The notes under the pieces: generated by a model
The model's database searches: none
Seen by the model: only the letters and a program-made list of their open reading frames with translations
Told to the model about the DNA's origin: nothing
Part shown: piece after piece, positions 324 through 62,394 of the stretch
Numbering within the stretch: position 1 is the stretch's first letter
Layout: every line of letters begins with the position of its first letter
Position numbers and translations under genes: made by a program
Assembly (NCBI GenBank): GCA_037783545.1
Contig: JBBELK010000992.1
Coordinates: 1,116,001-1,180,000 of the forward strand
Reading direction: 5' to 3'
Length of the DNA: 64,000 nucleotides
From: Henricia sp. BOLD:AAB3569
Lineage: Eukaryota; Echinodermata; Asteroidea; Spinulosida; Echinasteridae

Positions 324-1748
324 TCTGTTTGTAGTAGCCCCACAGTTGCAATCTGATTGCGGCAAAGGTTTGCCAGGATGTTGGCATGAACTTCAACTGG
401 CTAACGGTGATGTCCTCGAGGAAGTTAAAACTCGTCTTCTGCTTGGAGTTCTTGACTACAGGATCGAAGGCCAACACCTAACAAGACAGGTCATGAGAAA
501 CACATATAGAAAGAGCGAAACTGTTCTGAAATAACATGAAGATTCGAATGTCAAGAACAAGGGGCACAAATATCGGGATATAAAAACAACAAACAAACAA
601 AAACACAAATTGTACTCTGACTGACAGATTGAGGCGGCTGAGAGATACAACACATTTGTATGGCCACGATCTGGGCTGCTTTCGAGCGCGGCACCAGGGA
701 TCCCTGGTGCTCGCCCGAAAGCACGTTGGTGCACCAGATGGTGGCACCAACTGCTCTCGACCTCAGAGTCGTCGGGACAACTGGGAGACATGCGCAGTTG
801 CGCGTACTCACGCATGACTCAGCAAAAATGGCTGGCGCGTCGTAGAATAATTCTGGAAATTTGGGTTGATATTTTTAATGTTCAAGCTTCCACATCGAAA
901 CCAAACATTGTAAATATTTTCATGATTTATTTTCATCAGATATGTGATTTATTTAGTGGAAAACCAAGATTTTATTAGCGGGGATGTATATATATTTCTA
1001 ATGACCGTGGTGCACCAGGGATCCCGATAACGCTTTTAAGCACGATTGTGTGTACGCATTTGTGTGACGTAACGTTCCCAACGCCTGGGAGCACCAGGGA
1101 CGAGCGCTCGAAAGCAGCCCATATGATGGCCACGATCAGATGATGGCGACGCTCGAGGCATAAGAAGTATGATCGCGCCCGGCAAATGATGTTTACGATT
1201 TTCTACCTTATAAGTACGTGTATGAAAATTAAAACGTAGTGTAAAATAAAAAAAATATGTTTTGGTGTTGGAATGCATGCTTTGTTTTACTGTTGACCAT
1301 TGGGTGGTTGGAGATCAATGAATTCCAATGCGTTTTTTCATCTTCGCGTAAGTCGGATTTTCGCTTAAGTTGGATAAAATCACTCGCTCCCGTTGAATCC
1401 GACTTATCCAAGGTTTACTGTATTTACCATTATGTGATAAACTTACATCTGTGCCACTCGCCAATCTGTAATTCCCCCACGTTTTGTCCTTGGAATTCTC
1501 TTTGATCCGTAGTCGGAATTCCTTGACCCAGCCTTCGCCACGTCCTTTGACCTTAGCCCCACGGGCCTGGAGGGAGGTCAATACCACCTGTTGGTCAAAC
1601 GTCACCATGAGGAAGGGGCTTTGGTCCTTGGAGTCCGGGATCCAAAGGTTACGACCGGACGTTGCAGGATTGTAGTTCCTGTAAAAGCTGGATGGCTTGA
1701 ATGTTAGGTAACGGGAGGCCAAACGCTTAGGAATACTCATTGGATTGC
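324..1748 (-). CDS. Divergent discoidin-like domain 6 (exons 21-22), possible C-terminus
   Basis: Exon 21 (1447-1748) reads SRYLTFKPSSFYRNYNPATS, LWIPDSKDQSPFLMVTFDQQ, VLTSLQARGAKVKG, WVKEFRLRIKEN and ends LASGTD at a GTAAGT donor. Exon 22 (324-477) begins VLAFDPVV and ends with LKFMPTSWQTFAAIRLQLWG then YYKQ. Length and phase-0 internal intron match domains 3-5, although sequence similarity is lower. After YYKQ the genomic sequence is A-GTGAGT, a phase-1 donor like those ending the other domains. Read straight through, it gives S-E-S and then TAA at 313-315. I cannot tell whether the gene stops here or continues left of the window. No AATAAA signal is visible in the remaining 310 bases. Confidence 0.7.
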
Positions 1749-4700: not shown

Positions 4701-7700
4701 TTTTTTTGAGGAGTTTAGATGAATCAAACATGAAATAATAAGCATCCAGCCATTAAACGTACTTGTTTTCTTCCCAATCAGGTTCAATTTGAACCCAATT
4801 TGATCTCTCCAATTCAGGGGAACAATACGCAGATCCTTGGCAATGATGGGCCTCCGCAGTTTGAATGTATAACGTCCTTTGGAGTTACGTGCATTCTTCA
4901 TGTTGAACACCTATGGAAATTGAAAAAAAAAATTGATTAATTTTTGAAAAAAAATTTGTCAACATAAATACACACAAATTCAGCAAGAAAACAATTGACC
5001 TTTTGCATGTTTCACGTAAAAAGGGTCAGGGGCGGTATTCACAAAACGACTTAAGTCATAAAATTTAGGCGCCCAATTAAATTTCATGACTTAAGTCAAA
5101 TCATAAAGTTAAAGGCACAGGCTCGTCAGCAATGCGCGCCGCCAAATTCGTGCCACGAAATACGCAGCTCCATAGCAAAGCATCGAGCTGCGTATTTCGT
5201 GGCACGAATTTGGAGCGCGCGCATTGCTGACGAACCTGTGCCTTTAAGTGGTATTCACAGCGCGTTTTTTTTTAGTGCCCCGCTTATTTTTGAGACTCAA
5301 GTTTAAGTGTGGTCTGACCTGTCTTAAGTGCATTTAACGCTGGGTCAACCGTCTGCCATTGCAGTGTTTTTCTGCCCAGCGTGTTATCGAGAAACTACAT
5401 ACCTTGCCCGAGTAGGGCAGCTGCTCTGACAATCCAAGAGGGGAGAGGCTCATTATTTATTTATAAATTCACTAGTGTTTATGTGTTGCTAGGCTTATCG
5501 AATCATACATCTGTGTACACAGGGGTTTATGGGGTACATTGTTGTCCTATTTTCCCTTTTCTTTAAAATTCCTCTGTGGGGTACCACTGTTCCTTTTGAA
5601 TTTCTTGATGGGGTACCATTGTTCCATTGTGTTTGGTACCCCACAAGTGTGTCCGTGTTAGACCACACGCGCGCGCGCTTAGTTATGTGTGTTGTTGTAT
5701 GTCGTTTGTACCAAAGAGTTCCCATATACGGTCAATTTAACCATCTATATGACACCTTCTTGAAGCAAATGTGACCATATCTGAAACTAAATGTCATGAA
5801 TTTAAAAAGGGTGTGTTTTCTGTGATAAATATTTGATTTATAAAAAGATAAACACACTATTTGCAGAATGGACAAGGCTATTAGCCTGCACCATGGCCCT
5901 ACACCCTGGCCTCTGGGACCGAATTTGTCTGTCGCGCATTGACTAGCCTACGTCTTTAACAATGTAAATCTGTGTTTGTATGCAATGTCGTTACAATTAA
6001 AAATGATACAAATTGAATTAAATCACCCCGACAGTCCCTAGGTTATCGTGCCTAAAATGAAGTTCATACATAGTGAGCGCTAATTGGGACAAGCCGGGCA
6101 GGGGTTTGGGGCATATCTTAAATGATCTCTGGGAGGGTTGGTTATCTCATTGAAGGGTTTATCTCTCCGTAGGGCTTGTTAAGCTCATGTGATAGCCAAT
6201 CCCAATCATTGAGGAACAACTGCAATACTGTGTTTCGAGACCACCAGTTGACTTTATAGCGGAGGTTCGAATCCCGGTGGAGCCAAGTCGTGTTTCCACT
6301 GCACCCAGATTCCCAATCTAAACTCATGGACATTTGTCCAGTTTTCTATCAAATTAATTCACCCCAGTGGTCCCTGGGTTATCGTCCTTAAAATTAACCT
6401 TTCATACTTGGTGAAATTAAACTTACTAAACTTACCTTTTTCCCATTTGGGAATTTATACAACTTGAACGTCTTCTGCTTTGCATTCCTGTACAAAACTT
6501 TGAAGCGCATCACCATGGCTATCTTGCCCTTTTCTAGTTTGATCGGAGTCATTCTGATCTTTTTTATTTCTTTCGGGGAATCAAATGAGACTTGGAAGAA
6601 TTGTTGGTCGTCATTCTTGGCAGTCACCCAAGATCCGTCGCTGGTCCGAGGGTCGTAGCCAGGGGCGTAAGAGGAAGATGTGTATTGACGGACAAATTTC
6701 TTGAGCGAGAAAGTGCGACCTGCCAAAAAAGAATGGAAAGTCATTCAGTAACTTGAAAACGTCAGTTTGAAATGCATGAATTTTAAATGCAATCAAACGA
6801 GACAATGCAGAGGATGACACAAAGGTGTCTTGTTTTATAATAAAATTACTCTTTTGTGTGGAATTGCCCTTCAATAGTTGCACCATTGAACACATAAACA
6901 TCCGTTATTTGTTTAAAGGCACAGGCTCGTCAGCAATGTGCAGGCGCCAAATTCGTGCCACGAAATACGCAGCTCCATAGCACAGGCATAGAGCTGAGTA
7001 TTTCGTGGCAAGAATTTGGCGCACGCGCGCATTGCTGACGAGCCTCTGCCTTTAATGCTTTTCATCTGATATCATTCAGTCTGTGTCCCATCCTCTTGCA
7101 ACAGTGCCCCTTTAACGCACTCCCTAACTCCTGCGTACAGTGGCCCTGTTGAAAAAGGCCCCATTTGGCGGTGGGACTAGCGACAGAAATCTTGTCGCCT
7201 CTGCTGGACCAATCAGGACGCTTGCATGTGCATTGCAGCACGATTGCAGACATTCAAATGTAACGCGCGCAGATTGTAAACACTGTGCATGCATGTGATA
7301 CATGTACTCGGTAATGCTGGCCGTTGTCCGCGTCGACGATTGGCTGCTATTTAAAGCATACTGAGGAATCCGTTCCATTACATTCGTCAGCATGCATCCC
7401 TGTTATTAATTTTAAAAACTGCGGAGTAAATTAAGATCGTCGTTTGAAAGTTTGGTAGGAATGGGACAGTCATAAGGAACGGAACCCAATACAATTTCTG
7501 GAAAGTATAGAAATTGTTTCTTTTCGGCATAATAACATGACCAAATTGATTAAATTACATCAAAATGACTCGGGCGTGATCGAGTTGGCTCAAGACAACA
7601 GCCAGCTCGCTCCACAGATTTGCGTGTATTTCCTCAGGGTATTGTCACGTCGCTTTGCAGAGTGGAAATTCCCTGAGATCCCAGGATGTCTGTGCCCATG

Positions 7701-10700
7701 CATTTTACAGCCCAGTACATCATTTTCAGTTAGCCAAAATGTTACTTCACGAGTTGACATGTAATGTTTGGTTCCCGAGTAGATGGCATTCCGCAATAAG
7801 CGATAGGATTAGGAACCGGTCTATACGTGTGAAAGGTCCACTGTACCAAAACATATGAATATGCTAATTCCATTGGGTGAGAAAAATCCCGAAAAAGTCT
7901 ATTGGCAACCAGTTGAACACAGGGATCTGAGATCACTAGCAGGTCATACATACCTTGGTCTTTTTGTGGTTTTCTCTCTGCAAATAAAAAAAAAAAAGGT
8001 CAAGATTAAAAAATTTTCAGCTTTTAAAGACTGTCTCGGGGCTGATTTAACAATGAAAATATTAAACCATTTGCTCTGTCGAAAACTTGAAAACCAGCTT
8101 TCAAGCGATTAGAAAAAAATCCACCATCCAACTACCCTATAGATTGATTTGGGTCAAGTCAGGCATGCTGGTCAAGTCGGGTCAAGTCAAGTAGTCACGA
8201 AAGTAAATTTGCTCAAGCTCATTTCAAAGTAAGACTAAATACAAACTTGCATTCGTGTAGGGTATTATTTTTTATTTTTTTATTTGTTTTGTTCTGGCCA
8301 AGAATACTCCATGTTCAAACAAAACTTAGTATAATGCTGAAATATAATTAAATCCACAGAATGACCAAAATAATTGCATAAAAGTTTAGTTTCACTTTTG
8401 ACAGACCAGTCAAAAAAATATTGAAGACCAAGTCAAGTCAAGTCATTTGAGGTTCGAGTCTCAAGTAAAGTCAAGTCAGTGAAAATCGGGACTCAAGTCC
8501 CGGGACTCGAGTCCCAAGTCTGAGTCATTACACCAGTGCATATTCAAGCACCACTGTACTGGATACTTGTACTAGATGAATTATAAATGAAATAGGCATC
8601 CAGCCATTAAGCATACTTGTTTTCTTCCCAATCAGGTTCAATTTGAACCCAATTTGATCTCTCCAACTCAGGGGAACAATACGCAGATCCTTGGCAATGA
8701 TGGGCTTCCGCAGTTTGAATGTATAACGTCCTTTGGAGGTACGAGCATTCTTCATGTTGAATACCTATTAAAATTGGAGAAATACACTTGATTAATTTTT
8801 GAAAAATAATTTGTTTACATCAAGAAGTCTCTTTGTCAAATCCTTTTTGAATCTTTGTTGAACAAAGCGATTTCTCTCGTGAGAACGGGGGTCACTGTCT
8901 GCAAAAACCCTACCAATGTAAACATTATCAAGAATGTCTATTTGATGAATCTAAATATAATGCTGAATATATCGTCAAATTTTTAGTACCAACTCATGAT
9001 CAAAATGTCCTGGCGTGCTGCTACAATAACACTATTATTGAGACAGTATGGCACAATTATGGGATGAAAGATATCACGTGGTCTTTATCCTGGTTCCATC
9101 TCAAGATCTCCGACACTCTGGACAGATTCTCCCCCAGTTGAACTATACAACCTCAGGTTTTCCCCCAAGAATACATTTTATTTATTTATTAACCACATCC
9201 AACAGCGGAAGAACCGCCAATTACAGGGATGGGATCAATTAACATAGATATACGAATAACTATCAACTTATAAGTTGAATTAGAAACTGCCAGAGACACC
9301 GGGGAATCCCTCCCCTTGCTCTTCACGAAAGAATGCTCTGGGATCTTTAGAGTGCGTTACCGAAACCTAACACACTGGACCAACGGCTTTACATCCCTTC
9401 CGAAGCACGGAACAAGTGTGATTAAGTGCCTTGCTCAAGAGCACAAGTGCCACAACCCGTCACGGCCCGGAATCGAACCCACATTCTAGTACTGGCACAT
9501 ACAGGAACTTGAGTTCGACGCACTAGACCGCTCGGCCATACCAATATTGCACCATACCAATATTGCATTTTAATAGTTTTTCTCTCCAGTTTCAAGGGAT
9601 GAATCTTCTGTGTAAATTATCAGTGGTTTCATAGAAAATGATTAACAATGTAAATCTGTGTTTGTATTCAATGTAGAAAATGTTGTTACAATTAAAAATG
9701 ATACAAATTGAATTAATTCACCCTGGCAGTTCCCAAGTTATCGTCCCTAAAATGAAGTTCATATATAGTGCACGCTAATTGGGACAAGCCGGGCAGGGGT
9801 TTCGGTCGTATCTTAAGTGATCTCTGGGAGGTTTGGTTATATCATTGAAGGGTTTATCTCTCTGTAGGGCTTGCTAAGGCCAAACAAAATAATAGTTCTG
9901 CTTCCGGTTTCCCGACCGACCCTATTTTTAGGCTGCGACCCTAAAAATATCGGAAAACAATGAATCTGTTAGAAAAAAAAAAATAATAAATAAATAAATT
10001 TCTAACGACGTGTTCTCTTATTGCTGTGTTCAAGCTATTGGACTTAGACCTCCTGGTTGCCTGTCGATGTGCCCCAGGCCAAAGCTGGATCAACTTGGCG
10101 CTGCATGTCTCTCCTGAACTTGGGTCTGCAAAATTGTGCCCTGCAGAGAGAGAGCTGCACTCAGGGGACAGAAAAGAAGTTGAAGACTTCTATTTACATT
10201 TGATGAGTGCTTTCAGTTTGACCATTGCTGTGCTGAAAATACATTATACCTGCTAGTCTACCGTACTACCCTCCTCAGCAGGAAATTCATTCTAGAGATA
10301 AATAAATCAGCCTACTTTTCATGAAAATGGCAGAACATGTATTGTAGAAGTTATTTGGTAGTCTTGTTTCCATTGTTTTACTGTTACCCTTAAGCCTTGA
10401 CTACACGCAGATGCCTCCATATGATTGTGCACAAAAAAAATTGGCAAAAAAAAAAAAATTCCCTACCTACCTACCCTATTTTGAAATGCCATGTAATCGG
10501 AAGCAGAACTATTTTTTTTTTTGGCCTAAGCTCATGTGATAGCCAATCCCAATCAGTGAGGAACAGCTGCAATACTGTGTTTTGAGACCACCAGTTGGCT
10601 TCATAGCTCAGTTGGTAGGCGGAGGTTTGAATCCCGGTGGAGCCAAGTAATTTTTTCACTGCACCCAGACTCCCCATCTAAACTCATGGACATCTGTCAG

Positions 10701-13700
10701 GTTTTCAATCAAATTAATTCACCCCAGTGGCCCCTGAGTTTTCGTCCTTAAAATTAACCATTCATACTTTGTGAAATTAAACTGAATTGTTAAACTTACC
10801 TTTTTCCCACTTGGGAATTTATACAACTTGAACGTTTTCTGCTTTGCATTCCTGTACAAAACTTTGAAGCGCATCACCATGGCTATCTTGCCCTTTTCTA
10901 GTTTGATCGGAGTCATTCTGATCTTTTTTATTTCTTTCGGGGAATCGAATGAGACTTGGAAGAATTGTTGGTCGTCATTCTTGGCAGCCACCCAAGATCC
11001 GTCGCTGGTCCGAGGGTCGTAGCCAGGGGCGTAAGAGGAAGATGTGTATTGACCGACAAATTTCTTGAGCGTGAAAGTGCGACCTGCCAAAATAGAATGG
11101 AAAGTCATTTAGTAACTTGAAAACGTAAGTTTGAAATGCATGAATTTTAAATGCAATGATCATTCGTGGAACAAAGACGGTGCAAGGATGACACAAAGGT
11201 GTCTTATTTTATATTCATAAATACCTTAGACAGTTTACGCATCTCTATTGGCTGAGAGCACGTTACGTGGCCAGTTTTAAATGGACGACAAAGACCGGTG
11301 ATAATGACCGGCCGGCTGGCTCACATTTGGAGTGACTAAAGGGGCGTTCACACTATCGCGGAAAAATCACACTGTTCCATTGGTTTGTACACAAACTGGT
11401 TTTTCGCTTGTGCGCGGCCTATCGCGACGCGCAATACGTTTTGAGCTGGGTCAAAGTTCAAATCTGTTGAACTTTGACCGCGGTGCGCTGACCTTTCCAA
11501 TGCGCAGCCAATGAGGTATCAGAGAAGCCCCAAGCTACCAGAGTGGAATTTTCTACTTTGGAATAATTGGCAATTGGGAGCTCATGCAATGCGGTGAGCG
11601 CAGCGCAAAAGTGTGATTTTTCCGCGATAGTGTGAATGCGCCTTAAGGCCTATTTCCAAATCTTGACTTGAGATCAGGCTCCGGCTCCGGCTCCATGTGG
11701 TTTACATGGAGCCGGAGCCTGAGCCTGAGACAAAGTCGAGATTTGGGAAAAGGCCTATAAGTCTAAATAGCAATAGTATTGAACACCGCATGAGTTTTTT
11801 CTGTGTAAAATTACTTTGTGGCAGAAATTGCCAACTGAATGGGTTTTTTCTTTTTGGTAGACAACATTTATACCATTTATTCTTACACAAAAACGATGCA
11901 TAGATTTGTTTTTATTACTGCATTTACGTGGTTGAAATTTCTACAAGGCAGTTTATCAATATTATTCTTTAGTTATGTAATGCTGTCTTTAAAGTCGTTA
12001 AAGGTCTTTCTCACTTTTTTCTTTTCGTCCTTGTACTCTAATCTTCATTCCAATATGTCCGATCCACTTGCGTGGCAGCAGACGGAGGCGTTTTGTCCTG
12101 AATGTAAACGGCATCTTGAATATCAACTTGCCATCTGGGGTAGGCTGTGCTATGTCCATGGTGAAAACCTGTAGGTTCATACGAGCAATGTCCATTGAAA
12201 ATGTATTTCACAAGAAATAACAGCCCTCAGGATGTTCTCCTGTAAGCCGCAATAAGGGTGGATACACACTATGCCTTTTCGCGCGTAGAAGTGACGCGCG
12301 TCGCTTTTAAAAAAGCAGTTTGGAGGAAATTTTAGTAAAATAGAGCACTAAAAATCACAGAAAGTGTTTATGAGATTCTGTGGTTTTTAGTACATCGCTT
12401 CAGTACACCGCTCTTTTTTTTTAAAACGACGTGCGTCACATTTACACGCGAAAAGGTCGAGTGTTAAACCACCTTAAAGGCCCAGTGTATCATTTGCAAT
12501 GACCCCAAAAAGTAATCGACGAGTTTACAGGGGAAAGATTGAATTAATAGCAACTATCCAATGAAAGGTTTTCGCTCAAAATGATATAATTTTACCAGAA
12601 AATAATCCGTAAAGATGAAATTATTTAGATCGTTTGCAAACGATTTACTTATTTTTGGTTCGCATCTACCGGTACGCGGTCCAAAATGCATGGGCGCTGT
12701 GTACTCCGTGTGCGTGTTCCAACGCGATGCATTTTTATGGATCGCGCGCACACGCAGTATATGATGTGCGCCACAGAGTGCATGACGCAAGCCACACCCG
12801 ATCAACTGAGAACGAATATTTGAAACACCCCGCTAAGACCAGGAAAATGCATATGGATTTTCATGTTTTTTTTAAACGTGGTACATTTGACAAAGCTGAA
12901 ATTTCTTCGGATGAGTTTGTTGATGTCTTTCTTTTGATTTATAATGGTTTTATTCGCAGAATCGCTCAAAAACAGATCATATACAGGGCCTTTAAAGATC
13001 ATTCAGTTGCACTTGATCACAACTGAGTCATGAGTGGAATAGCGCGATTTTGGTTAAATCCACAGGTTATGGGCCTTAATTCTATTCTGGTACGTCCATA
13101 GTGTGGGTGTTTTTGAACAAGCCACTTTACCATAAATTGTCTCTTATCCCAGAGTATATGGGCACCTACGACGGTAGTGAAAGGTGATGTGGTTTGATTA
13201 GTGCCTGTGTATAAGCTGCACGGGACTCCATGCTCCCTAGCTTTGTAGACGTTGTTTTTGTTCAGTACAGTACGGTAACATATTTGAAGCAATATGTAAT
13301 TTGTACTAATTGTGATAAATGACTGCATTGAAATAAATGTGTCTGAAATGAATCTAAAGACCGGTTCAATACAGAGATAAAAGTTGACTGCAATTCAAGT
13401 AGTTGTGATATTCCTATCGCATATTTGCAAAAGGAAAAATATTCTCCATGAGATAAACATTAAGCTTATCTACATATTCGTGCATGAACCGGCTTACAGA
13501 TCATAAAGTAATAAAATATCAGATGCTCTTACAGTTTTGCCGTTGGGCAGGACAACCGGCTTGAACTCATCTGATCCCTCCGGTTGGTACTGCACCTCTA
13601 GATCAGTCACCATAGCTTCCCCATCGTCGGTCAAAACAGGCGCGATGGTCACGTCGCTGATCTCCACAGGATCATCGAAGGTCATGTCCAAAAACTGGTC

Positions 13701-16700
13701 ATTGTCATCAGACGCTGCCACCCATGCATCATCCCCATCAGCAGGGTTGTATCCAGGCTTGGAAGATGAGACATTAACTGTTTTGATGACATCATCAAGG
13801 GGCTCAGGATTATCTCCTGATGGTTCGGGCTTATCTCCTGACGGTTCGGGCTTATCTCCAGACGGTCCGGGCTTATCTCCAGACGGTCCGGGCTTATCTC
13901 CAGATGGTCCGGGCTTATCTCCAGATGGTCCGGGCTTATCTCCAGATGGTCCGGGCTTATCTCCAGACGGTTCGGGCTTATCTCCAGATGGTCCAGGCTT
14001 ATCTCCCGACGGTTCCGGCTTATCTCCAGATGGTCCAGGCTTATCTCCCGATGGTCCAGGCTTATCTCCCGGTGGTCCAGGCTTATCTCCCGGTGGTCCA
14101 GGCTTATCTCCCGATGGTCCAGGCTTATCTCCCGGTGGTCCAGGCTTATCTCCCGATGGTCCAGGCTTATCTCCCGATGGTCCAGGCTTATCTCCCGATG
14201 GTCCAGGCTTATCTCCCGATGGTCCAGGCTTATCTCCCGATGGTACCGGCTTATCTCCTGATGGTTCGGGCTTATCTCCAGACGGTTCGGGCTTATCTCC
14301 CGACGGTTCCGGCTTATCTCCCGACGGTTCCGGCTTATCTCCAGATGGTCCGGGCTTATCTCCCGATGGTCCAGGCTTATCTCCCGATGGTCCGGGCTTA
14401 TCTCCCGACGGTTCCGGCTTATCTCCAGACGGTCCAGGCTTATCTCCCGATGGTTCCGGCTTATCTCCAGATGGTTTAGGTTTATCTCCCGATGGTCCAG
14501 GCTTATCTCCTGATGGTTTGGGCTTATCTCCTGATGGTCCGGGCTTATCTCCAGATGGTTCGGGCTTATCTCCCGATGGTCCAGGCTTATCTCCCGATGG
14601 TCCAGGCTTATCTCCCGATGGTCCAGGCTTATCTCCCGATGGTCCAGGCTTATCTCCCGATGGTCCAGGCTTATCTCCCGATGGTCCAGGCTTATCTCCG
14701 GACGGTTTGGGCTTATCTCCCGACGGTTCCGGCTTATCTCCCGACGGTTTGGGCTTATCTCCCGATGGTCCAGGCTTATCTCCCGATGGTCCAGGCTTAT
14801 CTCCCGATGGTCCAGGCTTATCTCCCGATGGTCCAGGCTTATCTCCCGATGGTCCAGGCTTATCTCCCGACGGTTTGGGCTTATCTCCAGATGGTCCAGG
14901 CTTATCTCCCGATGGTCCAGGCTTATCTCCCGATGGTCCAGGCTTATCTCCCGATGGTCCCGGCTTATCTCCAGACGGTTCCGGCTTATCTCCCGACGGT
15001 TTGGGCTTATCTCCAGACGGTTCAGGCTTATCTCCAGATGGTTCGGGCTTATCTCCAGATGGTTCGGGCTTATCTCCAGATGGTTCGGGCTTATCTCCTG
15101 ATGGTTCGGGCTTATCTCCAGACGGTTCGGGCTTATCTCCAGATGGTTCGGGCTTATCTCCAGATGGTTCGGGCTTATCTCCCGATGGCTCTGGCTTATC
15201 TCCAGATGGTTCGGGCTTATCTCCCGATGGTTCGGGCTTATCTCCAGACGGTTCAGGCTTATCTCCAGACGGTTCGGGCTTATCTCCAGACGGTTCGGGC
15301 TTATCTCCAGACGGTTCGGGCTTATCTCCAGATGGTTCGGGCTTATCTCCAGATGGTTCAGGCTTATCTCCAGACGGTTCGGGCTTATCTCCAGACGGTT
15401 CGGGCTTATCTCCAGACGGTTCGGGCTTATCTCCAGATGGTTCGGGCTTATCTCCCGACGGTCCGGGCTTGTCTCCCGACGGTTCGGGCTTATCTCCCGA
15501 CGGTTCGGGCTTATCTCCAGACGGTTCGGGCTTATCTCCTGATGGTTCGGGCTTATCTCCAGATGGTTCGGGCTTATCTCCTGATGGTTCGGGCTTATCT
15601 CCCGATGGTTCCGGCTTATCTCCAGATGGTTCGGGCTTATCTCCAGATGGTTCAGGCTTATCTCCAGATGGTTCGGGCTTATCTCCAGATGGTTCGGGCT
15701 TATCTCCAGATGGTTCGGGCTTATCTCCAGATGGTTCGGGCTTATCTCCAGATGGTTCGGGCTTATCTCCAGATGGTTCAGGCTTATCTCCAGATGGTTC
15801 GGGCTTATCTCCAGATGGTTCGGGCTTATCTCCAGATGGTTCGGGCTTATCTCCAGACGGTTCGGGCTTATCTCCAGTTTCGGCAGTTGTCAATTCATTC
15901 ACAGTCGGCCTGACTGGTGGCATATCTTCTTCGTCTGATAGAGGCTCTATTGATGAAATCATATTGACAAATTTGTGAATTATGAGTATGTCATCCCGTG
16001 AGTGGGCTTTTTCAGCATTGTAAATTCCTTTGATATAGTCAAGTCTATTCTTTTCTGACCTTTAGTCTAAGTCCGAGTCCATCTTCTCTAAGTCTAAGTC
16101 CAAGTCTAGATAACCCTTGTTGTGTGAGTATGAGTCTTTCAAGGCCAAGTCTGGCAAAAGTCATACATTGGTGGTAGATTTATTTGCATGGCAGGTCTAA
16201 AGGCAACATTTAGTTGCCTCTTTCTCAATTGCGTTACACGTAGATCGTCTTGGAATGTGGCAATTTTGAAAAAAAACATGCAGCTATGATCATACTTTTG
16301 TAAAAATGTATTTCTTACCAAAAACCTGGTTTATCTGTTGTAAATTTTAAGTTACATAGAAAATAAAAAATTGCCGTTATTGTTGCATTTACTTCGAATT
16401 CATACCCAAATCAAAGTGTGCCCTCCTATAGACCTTTATCACGGTGCGGCCATCTTCCCTTTTCTGCTCTTAAAATGAACGTAACCAAAGCAAGGCTTGC
16501 AGAAAAAAATAGTTTGGTCCCGTTTTGAAATTGTTCATTGTGTGCATCACAATGTCACAGGCGTTGCGCGATAAAGAGAGCGCGCAGCTGGAAAGTGATT
16601 CTCAACGGAAGATCACATGCGCCAACATACGCGCGGTAGCGCATTACTTTCGCACTGCACTGATCATACCCGACATGTATGACTATGCCATCGGGAACAA

Positions 16701-19700
16701 GACAAAGATAGATGCACCGTGATAAAGGTCTATTGTGTCTGTCATACTTCAAAAATGCCAGTTGGGTTTCCCCCTGTACACATGTGTAGGGGTTTTCCTT
16801 CTGTATCTAAAGATCAGCATTTCTTCATCGTCTTCTCTTCACAGGTTTCTTCAGGCTTTAGGGGCTATAGTGCCTTGGTCGCTTTTGAGGAATCCTTGGT
16901 TTCAGTACCAGAAAGAAGTACCGGTATAGACCTTTTGCACTTGTGGTCATGTCAGGAGGTAGATTAATTTTTCTACTTTCTATAATGTGATTGCCCCCCA
17001 AGATAGCCACCGTGCAATGGGTCTAAGTAGTAAATAACTTACCGACATGCTGGACACGGAAACCGAGTAGTTCAACGCGCATGGCAACACACTGATGCCA
17101 TGATACCGGTATGATCTTGATGGCACGGATGCAGATCTGACTGGGAAACAGGTGGCAAACAATGTCACTCCCGTCCATGTTGCTTTGGAACAGCTACGGG
17201 GGTTAGAAAAAAATGAATAGTTAGTGTGATTAATTCTGGGATTTATTGATCTTTTCAATCAAGTATTTGGATTAAAGACTTATCATTCTGTGAAACGGAA
17301 CAAGGTTGGGTAATCGGCACCGCCATACATGCTTAATGGTTACATTTATATAGCACACATACAGTTGAAGTCAGAAGTTTACATACATGTACACCACTAC
17401 CATCATCACCCAAAATGGTAAACAGGACTACTCAAACCATTGCAAGGTGTGCAAGCTGTGTTTTAAGTACTGCATGCACGTGAGGAATTCCACAAAATCA
17501 TGGCTTTAGTAAAGACTGTTACAAAAATGGTGACAACGCAAGTTTAAGCACACCGGTTTTAACACAGTTGAATGTAAACTTCTGACTACAACTGTACATG
17601 TACATGTATGTTCACTTGCGTTGCACATTGAACAATATTAAGGGAATAAAAGTGTGTTTTTAGGGATATACTACGGTTGTGACCCAGTGTTTATGGTTGT
17701 GCTACATTTTTCTATGGTCACTTGTGGGGTGTTATGGCCGAGCGGTCTAGTGCGTCGAACTTAAGTTCCTGTGCTAGTACTAGAATGTAGGTTCGATTCC
17801 GGGCCGCGACGGGTTGTGGCACCTGTGCCCTTGAGCAAGGCACTCAACCACACTTGATCCCATTCCTGTAATTGGCAGTCCCTCCGCTGTTGGATGTGGT
17901 GAATAAATAAAATAAAATGAAATTTTCGAACAGTTTGAAAATCAAGTTATGGAAAAAAACGAGGCTGTGGAATTGCGAGGGTTTATCCCGGAACACCTTG
18001 GTCATGCCATTGGCGTTTTCACAAAGTGGCAAATCCGTCAAAAACAGGGATTTTTTTAGCAATTTCTGCTTTTAGTATAATAGATTACTAAAGTGTGACG
18101 TCAGTTACCATGGCAATTGGGTCTAAACATTGGCTGGTAATCTGAAACGCCATTAGTAAAGAGCAGGGAAATAGTTCACTGGTTTTAGTGTATAGACCCA
18201 GTTAACTTGTCAACACACAAAGGGTGACGTTTTCACTTTAGTAGTCTATTTAGCTTTAATTGATGTTCGCAAAGTTTCTGCAAAGTTTCGAGACTTGAAA
18301 TTTGCCAAAAAACGCGAAACTAATGCCATTTTAAATTCACGATTTCACAAAGTGGTGAATCACAATTTGCAACTCATTAAAAATGATGCTATGTGCATGA
18401 ATGGAGTTTTTATGAAGTGTCTAGGGATAATCATGAAAAGAAACCGTGGGGCTCAGGCAACCCGATCTGTGAAAGTGAGAACTAGGCTTTATAATAGACT
18501 CCCATATGGAAAACTTTCCTGCTATTGTGGTCATAAAATAAAACCTGTGCTCCCAACGCAACTGACCTTCACAGAGTAACTGACCGCAAGTGTGGGTTAC
18601 TATAATGTACCATTTTCTAGAACAGGGGGTTTATTTCTATGTTTGCAGTCACAGGGCGAATAGTTCTATTAAATTTGACAAAAACCATGACAATTCTTAC
18701 AACATCGTTTTTTAACAATTAATGCTTTATTTGTTGACTTAAAGATAGTATACATGATTGGTAAACTGTTACAAATAGTTTTATCCCCCTGTGTGATTGA
18801 AGATATGCATGATTAAAACCAACCTAAGCAAAAACCAGCTCCGTACTTCGTCTAACTGTTGAGAAAACAGTCAAAAAAGGGGTTTGCAGTCATTTCGCCC
18901 CAAAACCACTTCGCCCTGAACCATTTCGCCCTGAACCATTTCGCCCTGAACCACGGCCTGTGCACGAAGTGGTTTTGGGGCGAGGTGGCATTTGGGCGAT
19001 GTATAGTGTTTGGACGGAGTATAATTTAGGGCGAAATGGCACTCGGGCGAAGTGGTTTGGGGTGAAATGGCACTTGGGCGAAATGGTTTTGGGGCGAATT
19101 GAATTTTCGTCTCATGAGACGAAAACTAATTGTTTTACTAATTTCTCAAAGAATATAGCACTTCAGACAAAACCATTTCAGGGGAAGTTTTCCACGGCCA
19201 TCATGTTTATATTGTGTAAGTTAGGCGTAAATCTGTGAACATTTCTGATTTTCGAGATACCAATCATGTATACTGCCTTTAAGGCAAAAAAAGGGCTCTC
19301 TCAAAATGACCACAATCAACCGAGTCCCTCACCCTTGTCCCAGTGCACCACACCCACTAAAACATGCACTGTACACATACAACTCCACATGAATTAAGAC
19401 GTTGGTCTCAGAGAGAAAACTATCTCCGATTTGACGAGGAAAGAGCCCTATCTTCCATATATTTTCTCATGCCGTGCAAGGGGGATTTTTAGAGCCTTGT
19501 TTGAGTGTTTGCTGTTCAGTTTAGTGAGAGGCTCCCCTGGATTTCCCCCAAAATATGCCTTGACCTCCATTGACTTTAAAGATTTTTCACTTTTTAACCT
19601 ATTTTTCAAAGAACAAGAGCCCTAATGTCTGTAGGTCTAAATGTACTGATATACACATCATATGAAAGAGAAACATCTCTACTTCATTATCTTGGGCGAG

Positions 19701-22700
19701 GGGCTGAGTTCCACGAAGGAATTTCTCGAGGACGAGTGATTATTTGCAGAGTGAGCTTGTTTTTTCAGCAAAAACAACGTGCTTAAGGGTGACCTCTGTG
19801 TGTGTGAGCAAATGCGCGCAATAATTCCATATGGAGAGGATTCGCCAAAACCTACTACTAGTGTTGTAATGACTAGGACTCCAGACTAGAGTCGACTTAA
19901 ATCCCGATTTTTACTGACTTGACTTGACTTGACTTGAGACTCGAACTCAAATGACACGAATGACTCGATTTTACTCAAACTGTTTTTATCTTGAGGCTGC
20001 AAAGACCAAATTGTATTACAGCACCACAGAACTCAAGACTAGGCCTAACTGTTGAGCTTTGTGGAGCATGCATTCTTGGCCAGAACAACAACAAAAACAC
20101 CTACACAACTGCAAGTTTAATAGCGTTTAGACTCATTTTGAAATAAGCTGGAACAAATTTACTGTCGTGACTACTTGACTTTCCCCAACTTGCCCCAACT
20201 TGGCCAACATGCCTGACTTGACTTGACTTGACTTGGCATGACTTGGCATGACTTGGCATGACTTGGCATGACTTGGCATTCAGAGGCAGTTTGACTTGAA
20301 TTGACTTGGGACTCGAATGCAGTTTGACTAGACATGACTTGGGACTCAAGCAGAGGGAGACTCGTTACAACCTTGCCCACAACCATACCATAACTGTTCC
20401 ATCAACGGCTTTGTAAGGCACAAACGTCTCCCCATCCACGCTAGTTTCCACGATAAACTGGCTGACGTAGGACTCCTGTGGCATCATACTGCCCTGTGTC
20501 AGTAAACCTTCTAAGTCCGTCAGGGCCAACAGGTCAATCTTCAGGTAGTAACGCTTCTCATTGCCGAGGGATGGTGTATGGGGACGGCACTCCGCCACCC
20601 AAGCTCGGTTTGGCAGGTTCAATCGACCATTCTGGGGCTGGTAACCCTGTCAACGAAGAGCAGAATGGTTTGCAACTAATAAGGGGATATTTCCACAAGG
20701 TTGTGCAAAAATGTTTCCAAAGCTCTCATTTTATGAAACTGGGTAATAATACAAAAGTTCTTTTAAATTAAATGTAAGTTATGGATATGTGCTTTTTGGG
20801 GGATAATGAATTAATTCGATACAAATGTGATGCAGAGAAAAACAGCTTGGCTCCATCGGGATTTGAACCATGGACCTTTTGCTTAACGTGTAGACACTCT
20901 ACCAATTGAGCTATGAAGCCAACTGGTGGTCTCGAAGCAGGATATTGCAGTTGTTCATCACTAATTGGGATTTCATAAAGCTGCTTGGGAGAAATATTTG
21001 CTTAATACAAAATATATTTGCTTTGCAAAATAACGTTACTCTGTTCAGATAATCATTAATTTGTTTCCAGTGAATTCCATATCATATAAGAGAAGGCCCC
21101 TTTAAAAAAAATGCATAGAGGATATTGACTGGCAGGGGATGATGAACAGATAGAGCAACTCAATCCTGTTCATCTCCTCTATCACTGGCTTATTTTTTAT
21201 ATTTTCACAGTTGCCATCTTGGCAATGTCCACATGCACTGGTGCACTCCAGTCCACGCTTGCTGCAGGTATCACTTTATAACGTTTTGCACTCTCCGGAG
21301 CAGTTGCAGTAAATCATTTGAATAAGTCGAGTTGTCACAAGATCCAAGATGACGACGTAAACGTTGTGAAGATTTGTTGTGTGAGTAAACCATGTTGTGG
21401 CAACATGTGATACAAACAAATAAAGGCTGCTTGTTTATTTCCAATGAATATTATGGGTTAAATAAAATTTGGTGCAGAAATTTGATAAAAGTGGCAAATA
21501 AATTGTGATTGGCATGATGTGAGATCCTGTTTGAGAGGATTCATTTGTTTCTGCACAGTGAAACATCTTGAGATCTGGATTCGGATCTGCGGCCAAACAA
21601 ACACGCCCTTGATTTTTCCACCAGCATACTTCTCTTAAGCCCATTGCACACCTTTGCGATTAACCAGCCAATTGGACACCAGACCACCGGAAAAATCAAA
21701 CAAGTTTGATTTGCTCCGGTCTATGGTGTACGATCAGACCGGCCCAAATTTTTCCAGCGCACACCTTTCCGGTATGTGGTCCGATGATCCAGTAAATCAC
21801 AAAGGTGTGCGCCAGGCTTTATATACATGTACAGTACCTTCATGTAAGAACTTGATGAAATCTGTGCACCATTGATCTCTCCAGACTGCATACCCAGGTA
21901 GTGCACACCCTCTACAAACCAAAATCACAAGACAGAGCATAAGTACCCATTGCACAAACCACAAATACCTAATGATTATAAATTGGTAAACTCAATCCTA
22001 TAACCGTCTGTAATCATTGGTTATTTTTGTATTAATGAAAAATTATATCAGTGATTTTAATAAACTTGTGTTGAGTTCAACGCTGTATATCTGCATTAAC
22101 AATGCACCATGAGTTTAATACGATGAGTCATACACTTTGACCAACAGCGCCCATTTTTTTCTGCTGTTTTGGAAATGGACATGAACTAAAGGCTCCCACC
22201 AAAAAGCTGTTTGGCTTTGTATGTATTCTATTAGCCAAATAGACAAGAGAAAGTTTGAGATTCTGTACCTTTAGTTTTAGCAGGTTATAACAAAATGGCG
22301 CTCTAAAAATAGTTATAGTCCAACATTGTCTACATCAGTGTCAACACTACACTGTATGTTCAGTCTAACTTCAAAACTAATAACTTCAGACAACGGAAAA
22401 ATATCCAAAGTTATTTATATTAATTTTGGAGGTGAAGTTGTTGTTGAGATAAATAATCCATTGAAGCAGACGTATACATGTACCGTAACACTTTGACCAA
22501 AAAAGGTATCATATTTAACACTAGAAAACATTGTTTTTGGGAGTTTTTTTCATAAACTTTTGCTCCACATCAACTCATTTGTGAGGGTCATGTGCACACA
22601 CCAAAAGAACAAGCAGCTCAAATTCTGGGGTAAAAATTAAATACTGTGATGAAATGACTTCTTCCTTTACATTTATAACCTGGGGCCAGATTTTATGGCA

Positions 22701-25700
22701 CCACTTAAACGTTGGCCAAAAACTGTTGTGCTAACATTACCGCTATTTCATGTGCGCTAAGTAACTGGCATTTTTGTGTCATTGCCTTCAGAATATTTAA
22801 CCTATGAAGCTAGCGAACGTTTTGCAGTGCTTATGGTTACAGTTGCCATGAAATAGCCGGTCGCACCATTATAAGGCTGTGCCTAACGAATCGAATATTC
22901 GAATAGCATTTTACCAAATCGAATATTCGGTCTTTCTGCTAGGAAGAAGTAAGGGCCAACGATAACGTCTGCAAAAAACCTCTTTGGGCGAGAGACTGCT
23001 ATGCAAGTAACAACATAAAGTTGGTTGTTTGCGCACAGATAATTTTTTGAGGCGGCAAATTCGGTAATAAAAAAGCTGCTGTATTCCTGTGAGCTGTGAG
23101 TTCGGATGTTGCAAAATCAATTAATTTAATGGAAAACTTTTTTGTCAGAATCTTAGGGAAAAAAATCACACATCGAATATCGAACATTCGATCGAAAATG
23201 AAACCGATTATTCGAATAGTAAATTATTTGAAAATGCATAAGCACAAAGTTGACTGCTAAACAGTGCCATAAAATTTACCGCTGATTTTAATTTGGCCAA
23301 GACCGACTTGTACAAGTTTCACTGACTGACCTTTCAATTGACAAGTTGCTCCTGGTAGAGGCGTGGCAACCCCGTAAACTTTGACCTCAGACACTTGTAG
23401 GTGGGTCAACTCTTGGGATTTATCAGGGTTAAGTTCAATGCTAACATAGCGGCCTACGGGTGGAATGCCGTCCATGCTGTGGCATTGAATCTGAAAAGTA
23501 AACCAAGATCCATAACAAATACTGTGTGTAGATACGTCTTTCCACAGTAACAGAGTACATTTTGGCAACCAAGACCAGACTTAAAGGCCCAGTGGATCAT
23601 TTGCAATGACCCCAAAAAGTAATCGACGAGTTTACAGGGGAAAAGTTCTGAAAGTAAAGATTGAATTAATAGCAACTACCCAATGAAAGGTTTCCGCTCA
23701 AAATGATATAATTTTACCAGAAAATAATTCGTAAAGATAAAATAATTTAGATCGTTTCCAAACGATTTACTTATTTTTGGTTCGCATCTACGCGGTCCAA
23801 AATGCATGGGCGCTGTGTACTCCGTGTGCGTGTTCCATACGCGATGCATTTTTATGGATCGCGCGCACACGCAGTATGTGCGCCACAGAGTGCATGACGC
23901 AAGCCACATAGTACCCGATCAACTGAGAACGAATATTTGAAACACCCCGCCAAGACCAGGAAAATGCATATGGATTTTCATGGGTTTTTTAAACGTGGTA
24001 CATTTGACAAAGCTGAAATTTCTTCGGATGAGTTTGTTGATGTCTTTCTTTTGATTTATAATGGTTTTATTCGCAGAATCGCTCAAAAACAGATCATCTA
24101 CAGGTCCTTTAAAAGAAAAATGTTGTTCCAAGGAGATAACCTGAACCACAACACACTATGAGCAACTAACGATGGAAATTTAGTTGTTTATAGTAACAAG
24201 GCCAACAAATAGTAGCAACCTGCATATGGCTGTCTAAAACATCCCTGTCAAATTTCACATGCAACTTATGTAACGTAGACAGAAACTCTTGGTCTGTCCA
24301 AGTTGTGGGAAATGTTTCAGACAAGCGTGTTTAGACAAGAAGACAAAGGACAGCAACATTATCTCCTTAGAACAACTGAATTTTAAAATGTATTTCTTTT
24401 ATTTTGAGACGAGATAAAGCCAAATATGACACCAAATGTCCAAATATGACACCAAATGTCCAATATAGTAAGAACTAAAATCAATTTGTGTGTGAATAAT
24501 TACTGTTCAAGGCCCATTAATTACATCAAAGTTTATCTCATCAAGTTAGCAAGAAAGTGTTGATAGCAATGGTAACAAACACCACATGGATTTATTTCTG
24601 CTCAAGATGGTACTTTCTAAATTAACAATAGAGCACTAAAGTGAAAACGTCACCCTTTGTGTATTGCCTTGGTTTTTGGGTCTACACTAAAACCAGTGAA
24701 CTGTTTCCCTGTGCTATACCAATGGACGTTTCAAATTACCAGCGAATGTTTAGACCCAATTACCATGGCAACTGACGTCACACTTTAGTAGTCTATTGAA
24801 GGTGATTTCTTTTGTTGTTAACACACACATTTTGTTCACTTAGATACAATGTGTTTGTTACCATTGCTATCAACACCTGAGTAAGGTTTTTCTTGTCAAC
24901 TCATGAAAAACACAATTGGGTCATTGCAAATGATACAATGGGCCTTTAAAAGGATAACTTGCGACTGCATTATAACAACAGGCTACTTTCAATGGTTATA
25001 TCAAATCTTAGATAACCAGGGGCCGATTTCACAAAGCACGAAGACGCGTTTTAGGAAGGGTCACTCTTCTTATCTTGGGACAATGGTATGGGAATTAGGA
25101 CGCACTGAACTCATCGTAACCTTTGTGAAATCAACCCCAGGTTATTTTAAAATGTATTGAACCCTCAACAGACTGAACGATCCAAACTGAGAAAAGATAG
25201 TGGGGAAACAATTTTTACTGATAATTTTCAGGAAATAATCTGGAAGTTTTATGGAAATAATTTCCAGCATTTACCTGGACCACGCTGCCTGGTTCCACTT
25301 TCCGTCTATAGATGGCGCTACATGGAGGATTGCTGTTTACGTCTGGGTTGTCGCCAACTCGGACGACAAAGTTGGTCAAGATTTTGGGTTCTGCGCACAC
25401 TGGAGAGAAAAAAAACAATTCATTTTACAGATCATACATAGTTTATAAATGCCTTAAAAAAGACTAAGGCCCACTTAAATTGTCGCGCTTATGCCGTGTC
25501 GAAATAAATTAAACTTGGCACGACGTTGGCACGATGTTGGTACGACGTTGGTACGACGTTAGCACAGCAGTGGCTTCAAACGTCGAACTTAATTGCAAAC
25601 TCCCAGTCAAGCTTAAATACATCCAACATGGTGGATGAGTATTGTGCACGTCATGGATGTTGTGCACGTGCGTTTTCCATTCTGTCCATTGTACGTCGCC

Positions 25701-28700
25701 ATTTTATTATTTTGATTTTGATGCACTTGTTTGTTGGTTATTTCTTTACTAACATACGCGCTGCGAGCATGCGCATTCTTAGTTGTAAACAAAATTGCGG
25801 ACCAACTTCGAACTGGAATTAAATTCGACACGGCAGAAGCACGACGTTTGAAGCCAAGCCGTGCTTGTGCCGCACTAAATTGAGTTAGCACGGCAGATCC
25901 TGTCGAGCTCAAATCTTCTGCCGTGTCGAACTCATTTTGCCGAGCCAAATGGCTTCAAACGTCGTGCTTGTGCCGTGTCGAATTTTAAAAATCAAGTTAA
26001 ATTTAATTCGACATGGCATAAGCGCGACGTTTGAAGCGGGCCTAACAGTCAAAATTAAAAATGGTTTGCTTAAGTCTGTATACTGGATTTGTAATGTTCC
26101 CAAATTTTAATCAACCATTACATTTTTTTTAATTTTTAAATTAAAATTCCTGAGATGTGCAATATGTTCTTGGTGCATACCAAGCAACAAATGAAGCCAA
26201 ACATTTTTCTCCATTTCTTGATTGAAAGCAAAAGTCAATCTGAAAGTGGGAATTTTCAGCACACAGAAGCTTTACGCAGTCATGAAGCTGTTATGTGAAT
26301 ATTTCAATGTCAACTTAATTACAAGAGAAATTTTCAAATTTAGATTAAACTGTAGAGTTGCATTTCTTTTATTGCTCGGTATTTTTACTTTGGTTTGAAT
26401 GGGTTATTTGTGCGTGGGATTTGCGTTCCAAAAAGTCATTTTTATTCGCAATTTTTGTCTAAGTTTCTCTGACCTTTGTAAACGTTAAAAACTAGATGCG
26501 ACTGAAAAAAATATTAGAAGTTTGGCAAAATGCGGGGTTGTAAGATGAATGTGAGGCGGTAAACATTTCAAAAAGGGGGAGGCAAGAAGTTAGGGGTGCC
26601 CCTTAAAAATCCATCGTAGTGGTGCTTAACAGCCTATTTTGTGTTAAAGGTAATATACAGGATTGGTAATTACCCTCGAAAAAAATGATTATCTAAAAGC
26701 TTACTTGTTATCAAGATGGGAATGGTAGTAATCATCCTGTAATTTTTTTTCATGAGAAAAACGGCGAAACTATTTGAATCTCCAAAGATTGTCTGTAGGC
26801 GATCTTTAGAGCCATTCATTCATGCACAAAAACCATTATCGGGTTTTGCATGTTTTCTGAAGTATTACTGCCTCAATGTATTTTTCTCGACCAAGGCTTT
26901 CAATAGACCGATCCAGTAAGCTCCGCCCATTTTGGAATTGACCAATCACAGCCTCAGGTTCCCAAAATGTTTGGTTACCTGAGACCTCAAAATGTTGTGC
27001 ACAGAGCTACGGCAAATGCAGCACGAGTGACGCAAAAACACCATAAACATCATTTTTTTATCAGCGCAGAGGAGGCTAGCAGGTTTAAAACGGATTGTAT
27101 AAGACTATCCTAACCAACTTTTAATCCCTTCATAAATGTGTTTTTGGTGTAAACGTGAAAAACTTACCAAAATTAGCTTGTCGTTTTGCTAAGTTTTGCA
27201 TTCACTTCCTTCTAGATGTGTCGAGATGTTTTTGTTCGATGGCGGGCGTTACACGTATTGCAGGCGTGTTGTACATGCACGCATACGACCGGATACCCAA
27301 GTGCACATTTTGCTTTCGAGCGTGCAGTTTCTGTGTGCGTGTGCGTGATTCAATACGCGCTGACCAGGGCGCGGACGCTGACGCACGGCACGGCCACGCG
27401 ACTCTACTGCACACGTGCATGGCACGTGTGGCATGTTGCTAGGCAATTTCTAAATGGGCGGAGCTTACTGGATCGGTCTATTACCAGAGGAAATCACGCC
27501 GTTCTTAACAGTTTACCAAACATGTATATTACCTTTAAGCAAACATCAGGCTATGGAAATTATTTACAGTAAGCGCTTGAAAAAGTATCCAAATTGTATA
27601 ACATCCAAATTGCAGTATGGCCCGCGCTCGGCCCGCACAACGAGCGCCCGTGCACTCGCACGCAGGGAGAGGGAGCATTAACCAAGTTGCGCAACTTTCC
27701 ATGGTACATGTAGGTTAAAAACACGCTCATTTCTTTTAAAAACCAAGTGCAGATGATGAAAAGGTGTTGTATATATAGATAAAGAAGCATGTCTTACGGT
27801 TGATATCTGCAAAGTAACTCACTTGACTGAAGATGTCCTTTAAGTAACGTACAACTCGTCTTGTACAGTAAGGACACCTTTTTCGCTAATACTTAAGCAG
27901 CTCTATGAGATTAGCCCCTGTTCTAATTATTAGTTTGGCTTTTCATAGTTGGGCAGTTGAAGGAGTACAGATGATAGAAGCTACCAGTACTTACATGCGA
28001 TTCCAGGATTGTTGATGGCCACAAAGTAGATCTGGTAGTGATCTTTCAGATCCACATACCACCAGGGTTGGGTTTGGACTTTAGTGATGGAAATTCCCTC
28101 ATCTGTTGGACCCAAAAAATATCACATACCGTACTCTTCCAAAAAATAAATGCAATTTTCTTAAAACATCAAGTCTTGATCAAAACAGAAGTTTGTTGAA
28201 TAGAGTGAACTTGTGGATAACAAGGCACTGATGAACCAGTCACTTTGGAAGCGCTTTCAGGACTGTTCCGTCTCAGTAATTTCGTCCAGATCCAAGTGGA
28301 CCTGTTTGAACAAAGTGATTCCTGTAGCTACTGAATGTGGCATATCCTTCTTTCTGGGAAAATCCTGTAGTTAAGGGCTCTCAGAAAACCCATTTTGTTG
28401 GTTTTTCAACCTGTTTAAACCTGCATTGGACGAGTTGACCTCTGAAGCTGCTCTTCTGAAAAATAGCTCTAGAAGTATTCTCAGAGAGTACTTCAGGCAG
28501 AGTGGCGCACCCTGCCTCAGATGCTCTTACGGAGGCTGGTTCGGTCAGCCTTGCCGATAAAATGAGATAAATCTATCAGACTCATTGATCTTTCAGCCAG
28601 AGTATGTTTTGCGTTTTGCATTTTTGCGTTTTTTTGGGCTTAACCATATAGTTCCCCTATTCAAGCTTCAAAAGTCAACATACAAACGCTGGTAATGTTA

Positions 28701-61872: not shown

Positions 61873-61994
61873 ACACCTTCCCACTCTGGAACACCTTTCC
61901 TTTTTGGCACTTTTATAAACCCCTTATTTCATCAGAAATCCTATCCCGGGTGGCCCATGCGACATTCGTGATAAGGGCAGTATTAGCACTGAAG

Positions 61995-62365: not shown

Positions 62366-62394
62366 AACAACACGTCCTGGAACCATTTCCTTCA

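Follow-up and report, generated by a model that had tools for sequence, protein, structure and literature searches.

The heptad array and the exons around it

We analyzed 64,000 nucleotides of the genome of the sea star Henricia sp. BOLD:AAB3569 (contig JBBELK010000992.1, positions 1,116,001 to 1,180,000; hereafter the window, whose numbering is used throughout). At positions 13797 to 15875 its minus strand carries an array of 99 contiguous heptad units with the general form GDKPxPS, which spans 2079 nt and encodes 693 amino acids with 0 indels. An initial annotation, made from the letters alone, had reported 99 uninterrupted heptads at exactly these coordinates, and an independent Tandem Repeats Finder call agrees with it (period 21, 98.5 copies, 0% indels; the score of 2897 is the highest among the 52 rows for the window). 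The 693-residue spacer is also strictly periodic, as had been described, with 0 of 98 spacings irregular. Translation of the minus strand from 16061 to 13497 yields a single open frame of 855 residues that contains all 99 heptads.

The array is composed of GDKPEPS (53 units), GDKPGPS (35), GDKPKPS (6), GDKPGPP (3), GDKPVPS (1), and GDNPEPL (1). Apart from the three GPP units and the last unit, GDNPEPL, which is degenerate, positions 1 to 4, 6, and 7 of the heptad are near-invariant, and position 5 holds nearly all of the protein variation (54 E, 38 G, 6 K, and 1 V). The annotation spoke of a proline pair, but the two prolines of a unit are not adjacent. Proline makes up 29% of the array and glycine 20%, hydrophobic residues account for 2 of 693, and neither Tyr nor Thr occurs among the 693 residues. 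Every lysine sits before a proline, and the last unit contains no lysine. The balance between Asp/Glu and Lys that had been proposed was not borne out: the array has a net charge of -49 (-0.07 per residue; isoelectric point, 4.5), and this charge is segregated, with -40 in units 1 to 41 (40 E and 1 G at position 5) and -9 in units 42 to 99 (37 G, 14 E, 6 K, and 1 V).

The GDKPxPS frame runs on into a discoidin module, M3, which scores 32.4 bits to PF00754 when spliced (cut-off, 28.2). Because the open frame continues into a domain that passes Pfam, the coding frame of the array can be considered fixed. We also linked the 28 DNA unit types of the array in a minimum spanning tree and classified its 34 substitutions. 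In the GDKPxPS frame, 18 of the 34 were synonymous versus 11.5 expected (P = 0.01), and P ranged from 0.06 to 0.90 in the other five frames. Since one antisense frame, DGSGLSP, likewise yielded 18 of 34 (P = 0.06), the test by itself is insufficient to settle the frame. This antisense frame, which is open too, was rejected on the ground that the GDKPxPS frame continues into the Pfam-scored domain.

The exons assigned to the gene within the window are listed below in the 5' to 3' direction of the minus strand. Their ends were set by splice-site scores from approximate matrices together with reading phase.

36739..36820, minus strand: candidate signal-peptide exon, MASQQLLLCLALVLNGALSQ..., with a phase-1 donor
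34519..34698, minus strand: Cys-rich exon 1, phase 1 to 1
33427..33609, minus strand: Cys-rich exon 2, phase 1 to 1
30436..30782, minus strand: first half of M1, a canonical discoidin module (88.3 bits when spliced)
29714..29858, minus strand: second half of M1, discoidin
28915..29028, minus strand: exon a of an F5_F8_type_C_2 (NedA-like) module (PF22633, 34.6 bits when spliced)
27995..28102, minus strand: exon b of the NedA-like module
25275..25399, minus strand: exon c of the NedA-like module
23331..23490, minus strand: exon d of the NedA-like module
20389..20646, minus strand: middle exon of M2, discoidin
17043..17193, minus strand: last exon of M2, discoidin
13533..15946, minus strand: heptad exon, phase 1 to 0, with an acidic linker, the heptad array, and the first half of M3; weak site scores (-1.6 and 1.6)
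15934, minus strand: alternative acceptor of the heptad exon
13797..15875, minus strand: heptad array, 99 x GDKP(E/G/K/V)P(S/P/L), 693 amino acids
12015..12168, minus strand: second half of M3, discoidin, phase 0 to 1
10800..11083, minus strand: first half of M4, discoidin
8617..8764, minus strand: second half of M4, discoidin
6436..6719, minus strand: first half of M5, discoidin, a duplicate of M4; alone 26.1 bits to PF00754, under the cut-off
4763..4910, minus strand: second half of M5, discoidin
1447..1748, minus strand: first half of M6, discoidin
324..477, minus strand: second half of M6, discoidin

The order of modules is, accordingly, the signal-peptide candidate, two Cys-rich exons, M1, the NedA-like module, M2, the heptad exon with M3, M4, M5, and M6. 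The signal-peptide candidate at 36820 is the sole one between 34.6 and 64 kb that combines suitable hydrophobicity, start context, and a phase-1 donor. The Cys-rich exons share a CACC...C..C pattern, match no Pfam family at E up to 1, and possibly represent an undescribed domain.

All six window modules that were submitted spliced to Pfam scored over their cut-offs (M2 without its first exon; M5 was not among them). The scores to PF00754 were 88.3 bits for M1, 44.7 for M2, 32.4 for M3, 43.9 for M4, and 30.6 for M6, and the NedA-like module, which we take to be fucolectin-like, scored 34.6 bits to PF22633 (cut-off, 27.8). The earlier description of the array as a spacer before a divergent discoidin module in a discoidin-type, secreted-looking protein stands. 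M1 matches the F5/8C domains of factors V/VIII, neuropilin, and lactadherin (factor VIII light chain, E = 7.6e-39), but the fold family is all that it shares with them. A structure model of the M3 half-domain had a mean predicted local distance difference test score (pLDDT) of 71 and no PDB match at E<=0.001 (191 at E<=10); it carries no information, probably owing to the intron that interrupts the domain. M4 and M5 stem from a tandem duplication that includes flanking intron sequence (6180-6839 and 10527-11213, and around 4763-4910 and 8617-8764), the pieces being 88 to 91% identical.

M1 and M3 to M6 are each split into an exon of phase 1 to 0 and an exon of phase 0 to 1 and, therefore, constitute symmetrical phase-1 units. 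In an alignment with M3, M4 and M5 have first exons that begin roughly where the M3 repeats finish, which indicates that the heptad array is an expansion of the linker between domains, placed at the 5' end of M3's first exon. Skipping of the heptad exon, a simple alternative left open by the annotation, fares poorly in this gene model: because the exon that ends at 13533 and begins at 15946 or 15934 encodes half of M3 as well as the array, its loss would break M3.

Continuation of the exon series and a second, basic array

Profiles built from the window modules were searched against 194 kb of contig sequence extending on both sides; negative coordinates continue the window numbering below 1. 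All 38 matches at E<0.05 lie on the minus strand, the last of them at about -56 kb. A tenth C-type lectin domain, whose exons between -58 and -68 kb fell under the profile threshold, was spotted by eye and confirmed by Pfam. The pieces outside the window comprise 10 C-type lectin domains (C1 to C10) and 3 further discoidin domains (M7 to M9), and 13 of the 13 submitted scored over the Pfam cut-offs (6/6 modules from the stretch after the window and 7/7 from the last stretch). Several submissions were incomplete (C1, C2, C5, C6, and C8 without the third exon; C7 with the first exon only), and the ends of C3a, C9b, M8a, and M9b were placed by eye without a tabulated splice-site pair. M7, M8, and M9 scored 37.7, 63.4, and 32.7 bits to PF00754, and C1 to C10 scored, respectively, 59.1, 42.7, 50.4, 61.2, 27.3, 33.0, 25.4, 37.3, 44.0, and 39.4 bits to PF00059 (cut-off, 22.6). 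Altogether, the exon series contains 9 F5/8C domains, 1 F5/8C_2 (NedA-like) domain, and 10 C-type lectin domains over about 105 kb.

After C9, the stretch from -58259 to -65887 forms a single exon of 7,629 nt, whose site scores are 12.1 and 8.6. The corresponding open frame on the minus strand (C992:1050102-1057775; window -65898 to -58225) encodes 2,558 amino acids with a net charge of +1,076. A 33-mer rich in Lys, Arg, and Ser, KKVRKSKGKKTRKSKKRKSKTVSRDQSSSRSKS, spans 2,429 residues in about 70 copies, variants included, at a charge of +14.8 per 33, and among the matches to this repeat listed for the assembly, 65 of 65 are in this frame. At its 3' end the exon reaches into C10, of which it carries the first half; a second and a probable third exon follow. 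The two arrays thus share a design in which a phase-1 acceptor, the repeats, and the first half of a lectin domain are all found in one exon, and the basic-array frame is probably the 3' part of the heptad-array gene.

The 40 tabulated exons that run from the signal-peptide candidate through the basic array all keep phase, contain no stop, and together encode 5,586 residues. Because the exon ends were chosen with phase in mind, this agreement is a matter of consistency and not an independent test. From the sequence we infer a single transcription unit with these exon ends and a secreted product.

We evaluated how common such a gene is. In the 740.7-Mb assembly, a degenerate DNA pattern for GDKP(D/E)P had 53 reverse-strand matches, all in the array, and a single forward-strand match, a lone unit on another contig; the reversed-pattern control gave 3 and 8 matches. 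M3 had four matches, all four in this gene (M3 itself and M4/M5). The C4 C-type lectin domain was matched in at least 52 places, 4 of which are in this gene; the 48 matches elsewhere are 21 to 36% identical and mostly consist of single open frames covering most of the domain. No second gene of the same design was found in these genome searches, made with the heptad pattern, M3, C4, and the basic repeat only. The pattern GDKPEP(S/T)GDKP occurred in 1 stretch of a prokaryote genome collection and in 9 stretches of viral contigs, and all 10 lie in a 254-amino-acid open frame with GDKPEPTGDKP(T/A)P and without a long array. Neither of two pieces of 30 heptads matched a Pfam family at E up to 1. 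At E<=10, two PDB chains matched the first ten heptads, one being an adhesin fusion (0.0023) and the other a SUMO-interacting-motif protein (0.84), and both were taken as composition matches. GDKPEPS, GDKPGPS, and three overlapping strings had no full-text match among 5.39 million papers, a set with few subscription journals.

Expansion of the repeats

Adjacent heptad units are identical in 32 of 98 pairs, as opposed to a mean of 9.6 in shuffled arrays; hence, the array has been homogenized by recent local duplication. Selection on register, which the annotation had read from the lack of indels, has weak support, since the identity of neighboring units is itself a mark of such duplication. The spacing of the units differs between the arrays, with 0 of 98 spacings irregular in the heptad array versus 8 of 71 among the basic repeats (Fisher P = 0.0008), where the irregular events are perhaps few or non-independent. 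The synonymous excess in the basic array was not significant (17/42, P = 0.07).

Near-neutral growth, in which slippage and unequal exchange inflated a tolerated linker whose length and register have no particular function, would account for the identical neighbors. It would also account for the expansion of a second linker in the same exon series, where the linkers of the other tabulated modules are, by eye, a few dozen residues at most. We nevertheless regard it as unlikely, given the synonymous excess in the coding frame of the heptads, the near confinement of amino acid change to position 5, and the absence of irregular spacings compared with the basic array, the possible dependence of events in the latter being kept in mind.

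Another 21-bp tandem repeat of the window (39251-40212) was considered as the origin of the heptads and rejected, the best circular identity being 11/21 for one unit (P = 0.25 by shuffling) and 9/21 for the other (P = 0.97). Within 39100-40405 this repeat is non-coding and indel-rich and is part of an element whose terminal inverted repeats are 45 bp long and match at 42 positions.

Possible roles of the protein

The reading that we favor, and consider somewhat probable, is that the gene encodes a giant secreted multi-lectin scaffold of the sea star, in which linkers have become an acidic, proline-rich stalk and a block of basic repeats. In this scaffold, the heptad array would be the greatly expanded interdomain linker of a very large, mainly lectin-type protein. 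With 29% Pro, 20% Gly, and 2 hydrophobic residues in 693, the stalk should stay unfolded and extended; it would be hydrated and mildly acidic, with a contour of about 215 to 250 nm if fully stretched. An AlphaFold2 single-sequence model of 20 heptads is without secondary structure (mean pLDDT, 65; predicted template modeling score, 0.12), and the extended stalk suggested in the initial annotation is plausible. Such a stalk would keep the lectin blocks apart, so that each could bind glycans, and the basic 33-mer block should bind polyanions, for example, sulfated glycans. The protein could then cross-link glycans as a multivalent scaffold in a secretion, such as tube-foot adhesive or mucus, or in the extracellular matrix. 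The extension of the heptads, the tissue, and the function are proposed here from sequence features.

Several reports on sea stars are compatible with this proposal. Lectin-domain proteins have been reported in sea-star footprints (PMC9382459), sugar-protein interaction has been proposed as a non-covalent cross-link there (PMC9382459; PMC6262867), and sulfated proteoglycans or polysaccharides have been reported in footprints as well (PMC6262867). The protein may act in the footprint, with connective tissue or mucus equally open.

A more specific and, in our view, more tentative possibility is a single-chain, charge-segregated polyampholyte that serves as a glue or matrix protein. It would have about 6,000 residues, 20 lectin-type domains, a 693-residue acidic stalk that is maybe glycosylated at Ser-Gly, and a 2,400-residue block with a net charge above +1,000, and it might complex with itself or cross-link sulfated glycans.

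The scaffold interpretation has several points against it. The splice sites of the heptad exon score poorly under the approximate matrices, and more than one gene could underlie the exon series. The exon search did not recover M2's first exon, the third exon of C2, or a donor for that of C4, and it did not pin down the third exons of C5, C6, C7, and C8 or the second exon of C7. A single-sequence AlphaFold model is poor evidence for disorder of the heptads. Finally, sugar-binding C-type lectin domains are marked by an EPN or QPD tripeptide and a WND-like motif. Among the nine of ten domains checked, some of them incomplete, the canonical tripeptide was found in one (QPD with WHD, in C4), so that many of the domains may not bind sugar; the other motifs encountered were EPG in C2, EPS in C8, and WND in C1.

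Overall, the interpretation offered in the initial annotation survives in part. The extended stalk is plausible, and the protein is of discoidin type and looks secreted, whereas the charge is segregated; clean exon skipping is no simple alternative in our gene model, and the exon series exceeds the window, adding C-type lectin domains and the basic array.

The array could, alternatively, be the core of a proteoglycan, with up to 95 Ser-Gly sites carrying chondroitin-type chains and forming a bottle-brush between lectin blocks. Lecticans such as aggrecan, with lectin-type domains around a long Ser-Gly stalk, are alike in outline. Indeed, 95 of the 99 units supply Ser-Gly with Asp at +2 in 95/95 sites, and Glu occupies -2 in 53/95, giving Glu-Pro-Ser-Gly-Asp. 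Of the possible orderings of these seven residues, 3% give Ser-Gly flanked by an acid both at -1 or -2 and at +2, but 17% give Ser-Gly as such, and Lys is at +3 of the dipeptide. In none of the 19 modules submitted did Pfam match a link (hyaluronan-binding) domain at E up to 0.1. The strict E/D-G/A-S-G attachment motif described for Caenorhabditis elegans (PMC8418075) fails at 95/95 sites because Pro is always at -1, and chain attachment is hypothetical. The sulfated proteoglycans or polysaccharides of footprints (PMC6262867) would suit a proteoglycan. Vertebrate lecticans are reported to be absent from echinoderms, yet sulfated chondroitin is reported in crinoids, echinoids, and holothuroids; sea stars are not named there (PMC10381214). 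On balance, we find a proteoglycan core quite improbable.

A spicule-matrix role is the least credible of these explanations and, we believe, very improbable: sea-urchin spicule matrix proteins do combine a C-type lectin domain with Pro/Gly-rich acidic repeats, as the present exon series does, but they are described with one such domain, as opposed to the ten found here along with discoidin domains and a basic array that does not fit the type, the heptad array is weakly acidic, and the sea star Patiria miniata is reported to have a skeletal proteome without C-lectin or acidic-repeat spicule-matrix proteins (two weak single-peptide C-lectin candidates at lowered thresholds) and no urchin-like repeats in its genome (PMC5460417). 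The mineral-binding role that had been suggested for the heptads is weakened by the same reports.

To place the proposed scaffold among known adhesive proteins, we compared it with those described in the literature. Marks of an Sfp1-like footprint protein are, we presume, vWF D, C8, TIL, and EGF domains, none of which was found in the Pfam-scanned exons, the stretches between exons lying outside the scan. The footprint proteins Sfp1, Sfp2, Sfp10, and Sfp11 are, like the protein proposed here, secreted and equipped with lectin, galactose-binding, or FA58C domains, but as described none matches the present architecture; Sfp10, which is incomplete at 747 amino acids and was likewise compared by description, might conceivably be identical with part of the present gene (PMC9382459). 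Sea-urchin nectin, the sea-star orthologue of which is Arub-27, is also a secreted echinoderm adhesion protein with tandem F5/8C domains; it is reported with 984 amino acids and six discoidin domains, compared with C-type lectin domains, two arrays, and 5,586 residues in 40 exons here (PMC10057474). The exon series is, accordingly, not the nectin arrangement of six tandem discoidin domains without a C-type lectin. In apfp-1 of Atrina pectinata, an adhesive protein, short Pro/Lys-rich tandem repeats are joined to a C-type lectin domain, but these repeats carry Tyr for 3,4-dihydroxyphenylalanine chemistry (PMC4912638). With Tyr at 0 of 693 residues, the heptad array is not of the mfp-1/apfp-1 type.

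Each of the domain families is already known, as are repeat-plus-lectin adhesives such as apfp-1 (PMC4912638). The joining, within a single series of exons, of 20 lectin-type domains to a Pro-rich, acidic array of heptads and a giant basic one appears to be new, having no match in the literature searched, from which subscription journals are mostly absent. As modeled, the gene exemplifies phase-1 lectin modules that evolve giant low-complexity linkers within a half-domain exon, and it is a candidate for an unrecognized animal glue or matrix protein.

Trypsin does not cleave well where Lys precedes Pro. Because every Lys of the heptad array is so placed, the array is without a good trypsin site. 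Both arrays would, therefore, be nearly invisible to tryptic proteomics, the heptads remaining uncut and the basic block being cut into fragments too short to identify, and such a protein could be missed in trypsin-based surveys. The sulfate-bearing molecules of marine adhesive secretions, including sea-star footprints, are described as not known with certainty (PMC6262867), and the gene provides a candidate scaffold.

A few further features of the locus and the assembly were observed. Remnants of non-long-terminal-repeat retrotransposons are present at 51402-53279 (minus strand) and 60525-63230 (plus strand), with reverse transcriptase-like and RNase H-like motifs recognized by eye. An intronic tRNA match at 20848-20920 (minus strand, 35.1 bits) is likely, by eye, the head of a tRNA-derived short interspersed nuclear element. 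Dispersed repeat pairs are found at 38436-38802 and 45816-46183 (97.6% identical) and at 12473-12996 and 23580-24113 (91.9%). The gene order of a 16,221-base mitochondrial contig fits a sea star: two frames that probably represent nad1 and nad2 occupy the opposite strand, next to inverted tRNA genes, as in the asteroid arrangement. Its cox1 has 11 in-frame TGA codons and is open under the echinoderm code, the one table applied; because TGA means Trp in other mitochondrial codes too, this does not by itself identify the phylum. Elsewhere in the assembly, contig C955 contains COX1 at 7592, 23813, and 40034, spaced by exactly 16,221 bases, the size of the mitochondrial contig C2104; C955 is probably a concatemer of the mitochondrial genome that arose as an assembly artefact.

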